From the NCBI RefSeq assembly GCF_003001995.1, contig NZ_PVNB01000033.1:1-42276 (forward strand): a DNA stretch of 42,276 nucleotides, in the 5' to 3' direction. A program made the position numbers and the translations under genes. This DNA is from Orenia metallireducens (GTDB taxonomy: Bacteria > Bacillota > Halanaerobiia > Halobacteroidales > Halobacteroidaceae). Shown piece by piece: positions 28,075 through 35,683 of the stretch. Below the pieces are notes generated by a model. It ran no database searches and was not told the DNA's origin. It was given only the letters and a program-made list of their open reading frames with translations. The first letter of the stretch is position 1. Each line of letters starts with the position of its first letter.

Positions 28075-29324
28075 CATTCTTCATCTAATAAATCAGTAAT
28101 TGTTAAACTATCTAAATGCTTTCTTAATTCATCCTTTACAGCAGCATATACCCCACAAACCTCTTCATCGGCAAATATCTCTTTAATAGATACCTCTTGT
28201 TTAAAGAGTAGCTGTTCACATATCTCCCATAAGGATATCCTTTGCAGAGTAGTTATTGGAATATATCTATTCTCCTTAGTAATAGTAATTAAATTCTCTG
28301 CCATTAGGCCTTTGATGTTATCTTCAATTATTTCTACAGGAATATTGATCTTATTAGCCAGACCTGCAAAGGTTATCCCCGTTGACTTCCTATCCATAAA
28401 CTCCTTACAAATTACGACTAAGATTGCAATGGGGATTATATTTTGAATACCAATTGTGATATCTTGTAGAGCATTAAAGTGGTGCAGATTAGATCTATTT
28501 TGAAAGACATAACAGATAACTGCCCCTAATAATGTAATCATCCAAATTATATATAACCAAAATAAGAAGAGAGGAATCACTGATAAGGAACCATAAATCT
28601 GATTATAGCCAACCGCATGCTTGGTATAAAGCTTATAGAGATTTTTAGCTAAATTGAATAAGAAGCCACTGATCGAACCACCCACAATAGCAGCTAAAGG
28701 CTCTACATCTGTATTAGGAATTAAATAATAGCCTACAATAAAGATTAAAAAATATGAAACAATTGAAATAAATCGAAAGATATATGTATTACCAGTAGAG
28801 ACCTCAATCAAATCAGAACTAAGATAAGAACTGATAACAGAGATGGTCAGACTCAAAGAAAGTGTGATTAAAAAAGTTCCCAGAGTAACAAAAGTCCAAA
28901 AGGCAACAAACCGCTTAAAGATGTCGCGATGCTCCTCTACTCCCCAGATCTTATTGAAGGTCATTTCAATTCTAGCTAACATAAAGACTATTACTATTAC
29001 CAAAGAGAAGAAACTGATAACTCCTAGCTGAGTAATATCTACATTAGTAACATAATCTTCTAAATATCTAATTACAATTTCACCAGTCCCAGTAGCTAAA
29101 TTCTCTAAAATAATCTCTTTTAAAGCATTGATTATCCTATCCATTCCACCAAAGATATTAAATAAGGTCATTATATAAAAAGAGAAGATTAATAATGGAA
29201 CAAGTGATAATAAAGTTGTGTAAACCAAACTCATAGCATTAACGAATATATCTACTGTCCTTGCTTTTTGATAGACTCTATAAACAAACAGCTTCCAATC
29301 GAATTTAACTACCTCTTCCAGCAT
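28071..29324 (-). CDS. YihY/BrkB-family membrane protein with C-terminal winged-helix-like domain
   Basis: A 417-residue inner-membrane protein of the YihY (formerly misnamed RNase BN) family. About six hydrophobic segments lie between residues 30 and 285, with family features TVDIFVNAMSLVYTTLLSLVPLL, AFWTFVTLGTFLITLSLSLT, YYLIPNTDVEPLAAIVGGSI and YNQIYGSLSVIPLFLFWLYI. The last 100 or so residues (GITFAGLANKINIPVEIIED, ISLWEICEQLLFKQEVSIKE) look like an Rrf2-type winged helix, present in some longer family members. Function is unknown; transport or envelope roles have been proposed for relatives. It is first before the FAH gene, with its own promoter. Confidence 0.9.
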   Translation of the reverse strand: MLEEVVKFDWKLFVYRVYQKARTVDIFVNAMSLVYTTLLSLVPLLIFSFYIMTLFNIFGGMDRIINALKEIILENLATGTGEIVIRYLEDYVTNVDITQLGVISFFSLVIVIVFMLARIEMTFNKIWGVEEHRDIFKRFVAFWTFVTLGTFLITLSLSLTISVISSYLSSDLIEVSTGNTYIFRFISIVSYFLIFIVGYYLIPNTDVEPLAAIVGGSISGFLFNLAKNLYKLYTKHAVGYNQIYGSLSVIPLFLFWLYIIWMITLLGAVICYVFQNRSNLHHFNALQDITIGIQNIIPIAILVVICKEFMDRKSTGITFAGLANKINIPVEIIEDNIKGLMAENLITITKENRYIPITTLQRISLWEICEQLLFKQEVSIKEIFADEEVCGVYAAVKDELRKHLDSLTITDLLDEEC

Positions 29325-29433
29325 TTATTTCACTCCTATTTAATAGATTAAGATCCATAAGCCATACTACTAAATATTATAGCTAGAAATCATTTAAAGT
29401 ATCACTACTATAATTTTACAATAATTTTCTCTA

Positions 29434-29462
29434 TAATTAAAGGTAAAAAACCTTTAGATCAA
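29434..29462 (-). promoter_or_regulatory. Promoter of the yihY-like gene with symmetrical spacer
   Basis: On the minus strand TTGATC (29457-29462), 17 bp, TAATTA (29434-29439). The spacer holds AAAGGT-TTTTT-ACCTTT, an inverted repeat that could be an operator. The remaining part of the gap 29325-29570 is AT-rich with a small hairpin (atctaaat / atttagat near 29489-29509). Confidence 0.45.
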
Positions 29463-29570
29463 CATTTATCTAAAAACTCAAAAATAATCTATCTAAATAC
29501 TTTATTTAGATCGAGAGACTCATCAAATAATTAAATCTAATAATAATCATATCACCTTAAATGATAATTA

Positions 29571-29605
29571 TAAAAAAAGAACAGACATAATAAAATGCCT
29601 GCTCT
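29571..29605 (-). terminator. Terminator of the lipoprotein pair
   Basis: An 11-bp stem with two G-U pairs in RNA (agaacagacat 29578-29588 with atgcctgctct 29595-29605) runs on the minus strand into T7 (complement of 29571-29577), ten bases past the stop codon. Confidence 0.9.
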
Positions 29606-29614
29606 CTAATATTC

Positions 29615-32077
29615 TTAATCTATCCAAAGTACCTCACTGATATAAGAGGATTTACTATCTAGCAATTCACTAATATTTCCTTCTACATCTACAAGATAGA
29701 TAACCCCTTGCTTAGTAGCCAAAAGCTTATCATTGTCTGCATACCAGACATAACTATTCATACCTTCAAAAATCTTTTTAACTGTATTTTGATCAAAATC
29801 ATATACATAAAGTTGACTTACTCCATCAGCATTAATAAAATTACATGATACTTTGCTTTCATCTGGTGATAATTTAAGAGAATTTCTATATTCACCCAAA
29901 TTATTAGCAGGAGTTTCTAATAATTTATTATTATTTTGTCCATCTCTATCAACGGAGTACATATAACCCATTCCCTCTGAAACGTAAGCATAAAATAGTG
30001 TCTGACTATCTGATGTCCACCACCAAGAAATTTCTTTAGCATCTGCATCACATAATTCAATTGACTGTTTATCATTCATATCCCGTAGCTTCAGTTTTCT
30101 CCTTCCCTCCACCTGTTCAACGTAAGCTAATTTTTCACCATCTAGCGATATACCTGGCCAGAAAGCAACTTGATTCTCATTAGTTAAAGGTTGTTGGTTG
30201 CTACCATCAGCGTTTGCCATATAAATTCTACTACTAGAAATACTTTCATTACCTCCAGCATCATTAGTACTGGTTTTTATTTGATAATATATCTTTCCAT
30301 CTGATCCCCAAGTTAGAGATTCATATGGAGTATTAGACTCTTTTAATTTTATTGGACTATCTCCAGATATATCATTTAAATACATTGTCGTCTTAATAGA
30401 ACCATCTGTATTCTCTTCTGCAACATAATAGCTAATATTATCAAGATTAGGAGAGATAGCATAATCCATATAATTCCCATTTAAATTAACTACCTTACTT
30501 TTAGCAAAATCAGCAATATTAATTATATTTACACTATTATCTTTGGTTTTCCAATTTACTCCCCTATAAGAAACCTTATTTTCTCCTAAATAATAAAATC
30601 TATCAAAGAACATATCTGGATTATCTTCTAATACTTTAGTTCCATCATTATTTAATAAATTCAACTTCCCATAGTCATCTGCATATACTATGTTACCTAT
30701 TATTTCTGTATCATTAATATTATCAGGTAGGTCTAGCTCACTAATGTACCAATTCCCATTTATCAATTCTAACTTAGCACTTGCCATCCCAACCATTTTT
30801 ACCACTTCTCCAGTAGAATCTATCCCACTAGCAGAGAAATTATCAGCTTCTACTTTTGCTTTATTATCATCATTCACTACAACTCTTGTATTATTCCAAT
30901 TAAATGTATCCCAATCTACATATTTCCATTCTTTTTCTCTATTACGTAAGAAGGTATCTTTATTTGCAGTCAATGGTCCCACTGTTGTATAATCACTAAT
31001 AATTTCCCTCAATAAAGAAGAATCTTCATTAAGATAAGCTGTCTCCATTTTATCTAACTGAGCATTGATTACACTTATAGCACTAATATCAGATTCATCT
31101 ATTGCAATCTCTGCATATTCAGAAGTTTCTCCACCTACAGTATCTCTATCATAAGCCTCTACCCAATAATAATAAGTTCCACTAATTAATAATCTATCTG
31201 TATATGAGTTTTCATCTACATCCGCAATTCTTTTAGCAGTAGCATAATTGGGTTCATCACTTTTATAAACCAAATAGAAATCCGCTTCACCTAAGGAATC
31301 CCAAGTTAAATTTACAGTTCCATTATCTAATATCGCTTCTAAATTCTCTACTTTTCCAGGACCATTCTGTAGTTCAATGTCAATCCCAGTATCTGTATCC
31401 TTTAAAAGAAAACTAAACTCATTAACACGATCAGGTAATACATATACCCCTTCTTGTTTAATACTCTTATCACCTATATTAAATATGACATCCCATCTTC
31501 GAGCAGAAACATCTTCCAGTTTAATAGTTCCTTCTCCATCTGTCCACTCAATCTTTTCAGCATGCCTTTCACTTCTACGTGGATATTCTAATACAATTTC
31601 AGTATCTACATCTGCAGGATTCCATCCAAACTCAGTACTAACCTTTACCTCTACTTCTCCAGTAGCTAAACTGAGCAGAATCTTCTTGTTCTTAACTACT
31701 TCTCCTGCACCTAAACTTAAATCTTCACTTCCTTTATAAGCTACATATTCTTGTTCCCCAATTACTTCAATAGCTTCACCTACTACAGTATAATCACCTG
31801 GGCTTAGCTTGAAACTAGCTTTATCATCAAGAGAAGTCAATTCTTGTGTATCTATTACCTTCTCATCTTGTTTTACCTTAATCACATATTTACTAACATT
31901 AATCTCTTCACCAATATTTTGAGTTAAACTTGCTGAACTAAGACCTATTTCTACCATAGCTTCTTCTCCAACCTTAGGGGTATCACCACTACTACTACAT
32001 CCAGTAAGTAATCCTAAACTTACTAAAAGTACCAACGATATTACTATTAATTTTTGATTTCTAATTATATTAGTCAT
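29615..32077 (-). CDS. Lipoprotein with Fn3, NTF2-like and TolB-like propeller regions
   Basis: An 820-residue exported lipoprotein: lipobox LLTGC with lipid-modified Cys27. Residues about 30-230 hold beta-rich domains (LSPGDYTVVGEAIEV, TGEVEVKVSTEFGWNPADV). A fibronectin type III-like domain follows at about 240-332 (NGPGKVENLEA, VNLTWDSLGEADFYLVYKS, GTYYYWVEAYDR). About 335-455 looks like an NTF2/SnoaL-like fold (LDKMETAYLNEDSSLLREII ... NGNWYISELDLP). The rest is a TolB/PD40-type beta-propeller with repeats such as MANADGSNQQPLTNENQ, GISLDGEKLAYV and LKLSPDESKVSCNF. No enzymatic motif is seen; a binding or scaffold role at the envelope is likely. It follows a related lipoprotein by 19 bp. 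Confidence 0.85.
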   Translation of the reverse strand: MTNIIRNQKLIVISLVLLVSLGLLTGCSSSGDTPKVGEEAMVEIGLSSASLTQNIGEEINVSKYVIKVKQDEKVIDTQELTSLDDKASFKLSPGDYTVVGEAIEVIGEQEYVAYKGSEDLSLGAGEVVKNKKILLSLATGEVEVKVSTEFGWNPADVDTEIVLEYPRRSERHAEKIEWTDGEGTIKLEDVSARRWDVIFNIGDKSIKQEGVYVLPDRVNEFSFLLKDTDTGIDIELQNGPGKVENLEAILDNGTVNLTWDSLGEADFYLVYKSDEPNYATAKRIADVDENSYTDRLLISGTYYYWVEAYDRDTVGGETSEYAEIAIDESDISAISVINAQLDKMETAYLNEDSSLLREIISDYTTVGPLTANKDTFLRNREKEWKYVDWDTFNWNNTRVVVNDDNKAKVEADNFSASGIDSTGEVVKMVGMASAKLELINGNWYISELDLPDNINDTEIIGNIVYADDYGKLNLLNNDGTKVLEDNPDMFFDRFYYLGENKVSYRGVNWKTKDNSVNIINIADFAKSKVVNLNGNYMDYAISPNLDNISYYVAEENTDGSIKTTMYLNDISGDSPIKLKESNTPYESLTWGSDGKIYYQIKTSTNDAGGNESISSSRIYMANADGSNQQPLTNENQVAFWPGISLDGEKLAYVEQVEGRRKLKLRDMNDKQSIELCDADAKEISWWWTSDSQTLFYAYVSEGMGYMYSVDRDGQNNNKLLETPANNLGEYRNSLKLSPDESKVSCNFINADGVSQLYVYDFDQNTVKKIFEGMNSYVWYADNDKLLATKQGVIYLVDVEGNISELLDSKSSYISEVLWID

Positions 32078-32096
32078 TAACTCACCCTTTCTTATC

Positions 32097-33791
32097 TTAA
32101 TTAATATTTACTTCTACCCTATCAGAAATTTCACTTGCCAAACCATTACTATTATAAGCCTCAATCCAATAGTAATAAGTACCCTTTTCTAAGCTCTTAT
32201 CTTGATATGATCTTTCATCAACAACATTTACGCGTTTAGCAGTCTTATAGCTTGTCCCATTACTCCTATAAACAAAGTAGTATACTACATCTTCAACCTC
32301 AGTCCAAACCAACTCTACATCTCTACTACTAACTGTAGCAGTTATATTACTTACTTTTGCTGGTCCGTCTTCCAGTTCTAAACCAGGAATACTCACCCCT
32401 TCTAAAGTTATAAGTTTAAACTCAAGGGTCTTAGTAACGTTTTCATTTAATGATATTTGACCTATATAAACTACAGTACCAACTTGATCTCTACTCACCT
32501 TTTTGCTTTCAGGTACTTCCCAACCAGCAATCTTTTCTCGACTTCCATCAGAGTTTAGCTGATAAGCCTCAATCCAGTCTATTTGCTTACCTTCATTCTC
32601 TAAAGTAGGTAATGGAGTAGATTCACCAATCAATCTTTCTACCTCTAATCTTCCTATTATCTTTAGCTCTTCTACATCACAACTACCTGTTACATCTCCA
32701 TTCCCTTCATTAATTACAGTTGTTGAATCTTTAACTTTATCATTTACTACTACCTCTTCTATACTTCCACTATTCTCTATACTGGTATCTTTAGCACTCT
32801 CACCCACATTAACTTTAGTAACTTCGGTATTTTGGTTATTTCTTACTTTTATATTTTTAGCATCTACATTTACTTCATTAATTTGACTATCTTCATTCTC
32901 TAATTCAGTATCGCCCCCTTCTATAATTACTTTTCCTTTAATTATGGTGTTATTCTTATTCTTTACCTTCGTTCCTTCTGCCTTAACTGTAATATCTTCA
33001 AGTGTACTACCATCATTTTCTATAATAATATTAATAGCATCAGCTTCTATAGTAATTGAAGATACTTTACTCCCAGGTCTATTATTAAAGGAACACCCTG
33101 TTTTATCTTCAATACTTACATCACTTAGAATACCAGAATTGTAAAATGAGTTAGATGATACATCTTCAATTATCGTTCTTCCTGTAATAGCAGCTTTATT
33201 ATCTATTTCAGCCTCTGGAGCATTTACGGTTAAATCACCATCAATAGTTCCTTCACTAATAACTAATCTTCCAAAACCCTCAATTGGAGCTTCACTAGTG
33301 CCAATTGAAAGATTAGCAGTTAATGTTTTAGAATTAAGATTTAAATCAGCTATTCTAGTAAGAGTAATATCTGATGAGACCTTAATATCACTACCTAAAA
33401 TAATAGTATTAACACTCTCATCATTAATTGCCTCTAATAATTCACTTTCACTATTTACAACCTCCTGATGTGATTTATTAAAGATAACTGTTACTCCCCT
33501 ATCCTTGTCCATTAGAACTTTAGCTTTAAATGAATTGTTTTCAATAGGGCTGGCCCCTTTCCACTCTACTATATACCCTTCCTCAGTCTCGGCAGTTAGA
33601 GTCACTGTTTCCCCCTTATGATATGTATGAGTACCTGCAGATGGAACGACTGAACCAGCACCTTCTACGCTAATAGTTAGAGTGTATTCTTCTTTCGTTA
33701 TTCCACCATCACTACCTGATGAACACCCTGGTAGTAGGCTAAGTAATAAAACCAAAACAATACCAAACACGACCTTATGCCATATCTTCAT
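32097..33791 (-). CDS. Lipoprotein with InlB-B-like repeat, beta-helix-like region and Fn3 domain
   Basis: A 564-residue exported lipoprotein with lipobox LLPGC (Cys23). Residues about 36-108 match the divergent InlB B-repeat pattern (YTLTISVEGAGSVVPSAGTH, KGETVTLTAETEEGYIVEWK). About 115-390 is a run of short repeating strands rich in N, T, I and V (DITVKAEGTKVKNKNNTIIK, SQINEVNVDAKNIKV), suggesting a right-handed beta-helix or bactofilin-like stack. An Fn3 domain closes the protein (about 475-564, DGPAKVSNITA, GTYYYWIEAYNSNG) and is clearly related to that of the next gene. The ATG follows AAAGGGGGT. The pair probably forms one operon; function is unknown, surface or envelope binding is inferred. 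Confidence 0.85.
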   Translation of the reverse strand: MKIWHKVVFGIVLVLLLSLLPGCSSGSDGGITKEEYTLTISVEGAGSVVPSAGTHTYHKGETVTLTAETEEGYIVEWKGASPIENNSFKAKVLMDKDRGVTVIFNKSHQEVVNSESELLEAINDESVNTIILGSDIKVSSDITLTRIADLNLNSKTLTANLSIGTSEAPIEGFGRLVISEGTIDGDLTVNAPEAEIDNKAAITGRTIIEDVSSNSFYNSGILSDVSIEDKTGCSFNNRPGSKVSSITIEADAINIIIENDGSTLEDITVKAEGTKVKNKNNTIIKGKVIIEGGDTELENEDSQINEVNVDAKNIKVRNNQNTEVTKVNVGESAKDTSIENSGSIEEVVVNDKVKDSTTVINEGNGDVTGSCDVEELKIIGRLEVERLIGESTPLPTLENEGKQIDWIEAYQLNSDGSREKIAGWEVPESKKVSRDQVGTVVYIGQISLNENVTKTLEFKLITLEGVSIPGLELEDGPAKVSNITATVSSRDVELVWTEVEDVVYYFVYRSNGTSYKTAKRVNVVDERSYQDKSLEKGTYYYWIEAYNSNGLASEISDRVEVNIN

Positions 33792-33954
33792 TTTTACCCC
33801 CTTTTTGAATTAAAATGATTTAATTTGTAAATATATATCATTATAAGTATTATATACTACGCATTCATTTTCCTGCATGAAGTTGTATTTTTTGATTATA
33901 TAAAGCTCAATTTACAAATTATTCAAAATATTAATTAAAATTATTGATAAATGT
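33792..33954. other. Leader region of the lipoprotein operon
   Basis: On the minus strand several TATAAT-type hexamers occur (for example at 33849-33854) but no -35 at proper spacing is convincing, so the promoter cannot be fixed. No gene or RNA family is recognised. Confidence 0.4.
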
Positions 33955-34016
33955 AATAAAATTATAAAAAAGCTAGATATATTTTAAAATATATCTAGCT
34001 TTTTTATAATTTTATT
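33955..34016. terminator. 62-bp perfect palindrome after cimA
   Basis: The sequence is fully symmetrical around 33985/33986 (core agctagatatatttt and its inverse, flanked by attataaaaa / tttttataat). T-runs lie at the stem base on both strands. It closes the ilv-leu-cimA transcript, about 105 bp past the cimA stop. Confidence 0.85.
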
Positions 34017-34057
34017 TTTAGTTATAATAATATTTGCTTTTAATCCCATATCCCTAC

Positions 34058-34080
34058 AGGTTTACCAAAAATGTAAACCT
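34058..34080. terminator. Second, smaller hairpin downstream of cimA
   Basis: aggtttac (34058-34065) pairs perfectly with gtaaacct (34073-34080). On the minus strand it comes before the 62-bp palindrome and lacks a U-tract, so it may help RNA 3'-end stability rather than terminate. Confidence 0.45.
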
Positions 34081-34120
34081 TTCGTGTGTGATAGTCTTCT
34101 ACTAAATTATAATCTCAGCT

Positions 34121-35683
34121 CTAATCGACTTTCTTTAATTTAATCCCATACTCTATACTGTCCACTAAAGCCTGCCAACTGGCTTCGATAATATTGGTTG
34201 AAGCACCGACAGTACCCCAAGTCTGGTGACCATCGGTAGATTCAATCAATACCCTAACCTTAGCGGAAGTTCCTTCATTACCTTCTAAGACTCTAACCTT
34301 GTAGTCTATTAAGTGGATATCTTTAAGCTCAGGATAGAAACTAATGAGAGCCTTACGCAAAGCACCATCAAGAGCATTAACTGGTCCATCACCCTCTGCT
34401 GCTGTATGGACTCTCTCACCATTAACCTTTACCTTAATAGTAGCCTCTGATAAAGGGCTTTTATCCTCAGATTTTTCGGTAATAATTCTAACCCCTTCTA
34501 ATTCAAAGAGCTTTGTATATCTTCCTGTCGCCTTCTCTACTAATAGTTCAAAAGAGGCTTCAGCACCTTCAAAATGATAGCCTTGGTGCTCTAAATCTTT
34601 AATCTTATCTAAAACAGCCCTTAAATCTGTACTCTCTTCTTCGATATTAATACCAAGCTCTTGGGCTTTATAGACTAGATTGCTCTTACCAGATAGTTCA
34701 GAAACAAGAACTCGCTGCTTATTTCCTACTAACTCTGGTCGAATATGTTCATAGGTCTTAGAATCTCTTAAGATAGCACTGACATGGATTCCTCCCTTAT
34801 GGGCAAAAGCACTATCACCAACATAAGGTTTATGGCTAGGAGGGTTTAAATTAGCTACTTCACTAACATAACGAGAAACCTCTGTAATCTTGGCTAATTG
34901 TTCATCAGTTATAAACTCTTCATTATACTTTAATTTCAAATTCGGCATAATTGAAGATAAATTGGCATTGCCGCACCTTTCTCCATAACCATTAATCGTT
35001 CCCTGAATCTGTACTGCACCTGCCTCATAAGCAATCAAAGAGTTAGCCACTGCCAATTCAGCATCATTATGAGCATGAACTCCTAATGGCACACTAATCT
35101 CTTCTTTAACCTTAGCTATGATCTTTTTAATCTTAAAAGGCATTGTACCACCATTAGTATCACATAAAACTAGAGTGTCTGCTCCACCCTTTTGAGCAGC
35201 CAATAAGACCTTAATAGCATATTCAGGATTAACCTCATAACCATCAAAAAAGTGCTCAGCATCAAAGTTGACCTCTAAACCTTTACTCTTCAAATAAGCC
35301 ACAGAGCTCTCAATCATATTAAGATTCTCTTCTAAAGTGGTCTTCAGAGCTTGAGTAACATGTAAGTCCCATGTCTTTCCAAAGATTGTAGCAACTTTGA
35401 CTCCAGAAGCCAAGATAGCATTTAAATTCTTATCTTCCTCTGCTTTAATATTGGCTCTGCGGGTACTACCAAAAGCAGATATCTTAGCATTCTCAAGCTT
35501 TAACTCCTGTACTTTATTGAAATACTCAATATCTTTAGGGTTGGAACCAGGCCAACCACCTTCTATATAATCGATACCTAATTCATCTAATTTCTTAGTA
35601 ATATTTAATTTATCTTCTGTAGAATAGGAGATACCCTCTCTTTGACTTCCGTCACGCAAGGTAGTATCATAAATCTTTACCAT
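34121..35683 (-). CDS. cimA: (R)-citramalate synthase CimA
   Basis: Condenses pyruvate and acetyl-CoA to citramalate, giving 2-oxobutyrate for isoleucine without threonine. The TIM-barrel carries [17 protein letters not shown], the [10 protein letters not shown] segment typical of CimA rather than Leu[14 protein letters not shown] and [13 protein letters not shown]; the C-terminal LeuA-type dimer/regulatory domain lies at about 390-515. 520 residues fits the long CimA class. The ATG follows GGAGGTG, 14 bp after leuB. LeuCD and LeuB encoded just upstream can carry out the next steps. Substrate choice is inferred from sequence type; leucine or isoleucine feedback is likely through the C-terminal domain. 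Confidence 0.93.

Follow-up and report, generated by a model that had tools for sequence, protein, structure and literature searches.

What might two lipoproteins that have an Fn3 unit in common, and little else, be doing side by side in a genome of the Halobacteroidaceae? The question is raised by a locus in the window (by which we mean the whole stretch of 42,276 nucleotides of Orenia metallireducens DNA that was analysed, contig NZ_PVNB01000033.1), where gene A, a complete ORF on the minus strand (32097..33791) encoding a lipoprotein of 564 residues, is followed on the same strand by gene B, a complete ORF (29615..32077) encoding a lipoprotein of 820 residues. On the evidence set out below we give roughly a 45% probability to the reading that A and B are an accessory-operon pair that would serve outer-surface display and polymer binding in a diderm halophilic anaerobe.

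An operon-like gene pair

The original prediction had placed the two lipoprotein genes correctly, at these coordinates and adjacent, and had taken them to be co-transcribed, which the sequence around them supports. Both proteins start with a signal peptide and, by reading, a lipobox-like Cys (LLPGC, LLTGC), and purine-rich ribosome sites stand in front of both genes; the 19 bp gap between them (32078..32096, minus strand) holds the ribosome-binding-like AAGAAAGGGTG before gene B. Upstream of gene A are cimA and leu genes, and downstream of gene B is a YihY-type gene (all named by ORF reading). In a terminator scan the interval from cimA to gene A yielded a palindrome of 20 pairs (33962..34009) that has T-runs on either strand and resembles a bidirectional terminator, and a terminator-like stem-loop was located directly 3' of gene B (29576..29607, minus strand); there were seven such listings against 1.2 expected, six of the seven being variants of the cimA/A palindrome. 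Based on the flanking terminator-like sites and the ribosome sites, A-B looks like a two-gene transcript. In what follows the window pair is A1/B1, a second pair in the same genome is A2/B2 (locus L030), a third in Halanaerobacter jeridensis is A3/B3 (locus L031), and B4 is a further relative of B.

Domain composition of A

Behind its lipobox, A comprises an InlB-B repeat (residues about 30-108), a predicted right-handed beta-helix (about 109-373), an Ig-like linker between helix and Fn3 (374-468) and the C-terminal Fn3 (470-564); the original prediction had named all of these except the Ig-like domain. Its InlB-B-like repeat was recovered with PF18998 (divergent InlB B-repeat), the cut-off of which (23.6 bits) is passed by A1 (28.3), A2 (34.5) and A3 (36.8). 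PF20585 (pectate lyase-like adhesive domain) stayed below cut-off in A1 (21.2 vs 24.3), and the Pfam search listed no match to it for A2 or A3; an NCBIfam search of A1-A3 returned no families.

For the beta-helix-like stack we relied on an AlphaFold2 model of A1, built from a two-sequence alignment (mean pLDDT 69.9), in which ten-residue blocks scored 83-95 over the strand ladder at residues 181-340; most Fn3 blocks were at 71-89, and confidence in the InlB part was poor. Structural matches agreed: the helix alone aligned with 8wm1_A (Z 14.8, rmsd 2.9 over 210 residues), the top match of A1 was ChiW 5gzt_B (Z 14.9, rmsd 14.3, with the 246 aligned residues covering two domains), and residues 474-564 aligned with the bacterial Fn3-like structure 3mpc_A (Z 13.2, rmsd 1.9 over 88), the Foldseek list for A being dominated by Fn3/Ig tandems. 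Model and fold match therefore both point to a right-handed parallel beta-helix, a fold common to many unrelated families. The layout is constant across A1, A2 and A3 and the number of coils varies, with an Asn ladder at a spacing of 19-22 residues marking eight coils in A1, ten in A3 and about 14 in A2 (hand count from the motif list); the DNA of A2 has repeats at 120- and 135-base spacing, equal to about two coils. Separately, one relative (L107 3-9251, G002:C7) has a single ORF of more than 3000 codons for which 19 InlB-B repeat matches are listed, mostly in tandem.

Domain composition of B and exchange of its head

Gene B starts with a DUF4493-like stem (residues about 30-227) that the original prediction had not separated out, followed by the internal Fn3 (about 228-328), an NTF2-like domain (about 329-461) and a putative beta-propeller (about 462-820). 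Against PF14900 (DUF4493, cut-off 27) B3 scored 28.3 over residues 37-255, B2 26.3 over 57-145 and B1 16.3, with no match in B4, and a stem/Fn3 profile matched 3mpc_A at 4.4e-9. The predicted NTF2-like domain held in part: the domain in B1 has no Pfam match of its own, but it is homologous to a domain of B3 (36%, E-value 2e-15 in a module comparison), which in turn matched DUF4440 at 2e-4, below cut-off (22.1 vs 25.2), while whole B3 passes that cut-off (37.5, over two stretches). A TolB-like propeller had also been proposed, and here the support was for a propeller but not for TolB: B1 matched TIGR02800 (TolB) at 2.8e-13 over residues 614-727, yet its 49.6 bits lie far under the equivalog cut-off of 343, by which we ruled out membership of that family. 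TolB chains were matched in PDB by sequence at E-values of 0.003 and worse, and the propeller region filled the list of structural matches to a B1 model of low confidence (mean pLDDT 58.7), with PDB propellers at Z of about 12-13.8. In line with the original prediction of a pair without enzyme motifs, family profile searches found no catalytic family at cut-off in A1 or B1.

The stems of B1-B4 are mutually 35-49% identical and their Fn3s 40-47% (module comparison), whereas among the heads only B1 and B3 have a domain in common, the NTF2-like one described above. Beyond it, the B3 head has a second DUF4440-like domain and an uncharacterised tail; the B2 head spans 759 residues without a Pfam match, and the B4 head has X25-type domains. 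The NCBIfam search of B2-B4 returned no families. By eye, the B2 head (residues 326-1084; L030 9389-12643) is rich in tyrosine, and it is without NCBIfam match as well. None of the B2, B3 and B4 heads has a propeller match, and thus the propeller is not a conserved function of B. This bears on a reading in which A and B are a periplasmic envelope-maintenance pair, B having a TolB-like adaptor propeller and A being a structural rod. The TIGR02800 match speaks for it, as do TolB/Pal structures matching the B1 model at Z 12.6; however, the propellers of S9 peptidases and of oligogalacturonate lyase reach equally high scores, the profile score is a fraction of the TolB cut-off, and the other heads lack the propeller, so that we consider it very improbable, and continue with an outer-surface pair.

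More distant lipoproteins with the stem and/or the Fn3 carry alpha-amylase, CBM26 or FGE-sulfatase (sulfatase-modifying-factor-like) domains. Since the stem and Fn3 occur with so many different heads, the stem is, as judged from sequence, a general display part of the Halobacteroidaceae. Two observations may be added on these relatives. A stem and Fn3 lipoprotein with an FGE-sulfatase-type head (L095 5279-7081, G001:C9) is unusual beside the amylase heads. In addition, there are long runs of adjacent lipoprotein genes (L088-L093; G002:C1 800-840 kb, G003:C9 18-52 kb and G004:C6 436-472 kb), several members of which combine stem/Fn3 with alpha-amylase or starch-binding domains; these runs recall surface glycan-use clusters.

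Recurrence of the pair in relatives

The original prediction had proposed looking for the same gene order in other genomes. We searched 13 genomes of the order with an A profile of three rows and a B stem plus Fn3 profile of four rows, the latter made from an alignment in which B3 and B4 were cut before or near their heads and which replaced one that included the unlike heads. Full-length A occurs at three loci in two of the 13 genomes and a close B stem at four loci (B1-B4) in the same two, each of the four scoring more than 510 bits on the stem plus Fn3 profile, with the next match at 141 bits. At all three full-length A loci B lies directly 3' of A on the same strand, at gaps of 19, 26 and 28 bp, and the predicted gene order thus recurs wherever a full-length A was found; the original prediction would have been refuted by homologues that never stand side by side, and this is not the case. 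Conversely, A stands in front of three of the four close B genes; B4, without an adjacent A, follows genes that read as LolA-like and barrel-like. Wider searches with the A profile revealed no additional helix in 59 genomes of the class, where 28 had matches at 1e-10, those to proteins other than A falling mainly at the InlB or the Ig/Fn3 end (from the listed ranges). Among viral contigs its matches, at 11 loci, were confined to the Ig/Fn3 end. The full B protein matched in 17 of 101 relatives, mostly on its Fn3 or propeller parts. In the open-licence papers searched we found nothing on this A-B pair.

It may be that A and B are nothing but two independent surface lipoproteins, co-transcribed, duplicated as a unit and reusing a common Fn3 spacer, without a complex or a common ligand. 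The existence of B4 without A, and of Fn3 and stem modules in many lipoproteins of the Halobacteroidaceae, agrees with this, as does the fact that two of the three pairs are in one genome; the three may have descended from one ancestral pair, and therefore their adjacency counts as fewer than three independent events. Against it, the adjacency has outlasted deep divergence (A1 is 40 and 44% identical to A2 and A3, respectively, and the stems only 35-49% to one another) as well as replacement of the B head, with the layout of A unchanged, and the three pairs sit in three dissimilar neighbourhoods. We regard independence as somewhat less likely than a working pair of surface proteins.

Evolution of the shared Fn3

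The Fn3 unit predicted at the C-terminus of A and within B is indeed shared: with B as query in the window genome, the A Fn3 was matched at 4.5e-21 (39% identity), and the A1 and B1 Fn3 pieces compared directly gave 42.6% (1.4e-26). Beyond the Fn3 the two proteins have little in common, as had also been claimed. The original prediction had suggested that the two may form an envelope complex; as many surface lipoproteins in the family have Fn3 and stem modules, however, a shared Fn3 alone is no sign of contact between A and B. The Fn3s of A2 and B2 (60%) and of A3 and B3 (51%) are mutual best matches, and a 24-row Fn3 tree pairs them by locus as well, with moderate support (85/73 and 87/91, respectively). 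In this tree a single clade of the A Fn3s is worse by 9.9 log units and mildly rejected (p-AU 0.045), and one of the B1-B3 Fn3s is worse by 12.3 (p-AU 0.03). These values hint at homogenisation within each locus, and would suit an obligate envelope complex in which the Fn3s of A and B pack together and are kept alike by within-locus gene conversion. However, the Fn3s of the window pair are not mutual best matches, and a seven-row tree leaves the A clade unrejected (p 0.127) and all forks open; we think such a complex improbable. Fn3-Fn3 gene conversion was dropped as the main reading because of the weak support and the window pair not following it. Similarly small is the chance we give to A and B forming a previously undescribed modular surface receptor, in which a helix rod of adjustable length would be permanently partnered with a stalk of swappable head, their touching Fn3s kept alike at each locus.

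Chromosomal slot and neighbouring genes

Between cimA and the YihY-type gene lies a slot that covers positions 29324-34121 of the window. Three relatives (G001, G002 and G003) have cimA (76-96% identical) and the YihY-type gene (58-93%) close together: in G001 (cimA 96%, YihY 93%) the slot encodes one 243-residue protein with weak barrel matches, in G002 it is 788 bp without an ORF over 59 residues, and in G003, H. jeridensis, it holds two transporter-like genes and one PHP-like gene (named by reading). In G004 and G005 cimA and the YihY-type gene are apart. The A-B pair is accessory, since the slot in these three relatives holds other genes or none. By reading, none of the three pairs (window, L030 and L031) has a gene for polysaccharide degradation as its neighbour, and the idea that A-B belongs to an operon degrading starch or glycans is therefore not supported. 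In L031 there are nucleotide-sugar genes about 3.4 kb upstream of the pair, with no specific link to it.

A proposed role and comparison with known systems

The order to which the window's genome belongs is described as having LPS outer membranes (PMC5007114). In such an envelope we propose that B would be a lipid-anchored stalk, its DUF4493-like stem and Fn3 carrying an exchangeable head, which in the window is an NTF2-like domain with a propeller of TolB/S9 type. A would be a lipid-anchored rod that has InlB-B at its base, Ig-like and Fn3 domains at its end and a beta-helix of differing length between them; by analogy with CBM54-type helices it would most likely bind or contact an extracellular polymer. 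If the two are co-expressed and cooperate, A might hold a ligand or matrix while the B head binds or senses a target of its own. To our knowledge there is little published description of the surface proteins of Firmicutes that have an outer membrane. A reusable stem on which amylase, sulfatase-modifying-factor, propeller and carbohydrate-binding heads are found would offer a handle on protein display in these halophiles, and the recurrent A-B pair is a compact example, open to experiment, of a partner that stays constant next to a head that changes.

Among characterised proteins, ChiW of Paenibacillus sp. FPU-7 (CBM54 beta-helix, Ig-like, GH18) is comparable to A in that an Ig-like domain comes after the right-handed beta-helix, and A, too, would be displayed at the cell surface, where ChiW is located; A differs in being a lipoprotein without a catalytic domain. 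According to the ChiW report, its helix, a CBM54, binds several polysaccharides with no detectable degradation, and GGGxxSxx is the cleavage motif of this CBM54 (PMC5132251). A motif search found GGGxxS absent from A1, A2 and A3, by which we rejected CBM54 membership of A by motif, and ChiW was not among the sequence matches listed for A. The B stems resemble DUF4493 to the extent that B3 passes its cut-off and B2 falls just under, but B1 and B4 depart from it, and in B the stem leads on to an Fn3 and a head. TolB, the propeller protein of the Tol-Pal system, is like B1 in its propeller part, though in B1 the propeller is preceded by the stem, the Fn3 and the NTF2-like domain, and the score is far below the family cut-off. 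Lastly, lipid-anchored alpha-amylases of the Halobacteroidaceae themselves (L088, L092 and L096), while unlike B in their alpha-amylase domain and in lying in lipoprotein runs without a full A-type neighbour, resemble it in the stem and/or Fn3 that comes after the lipobox.
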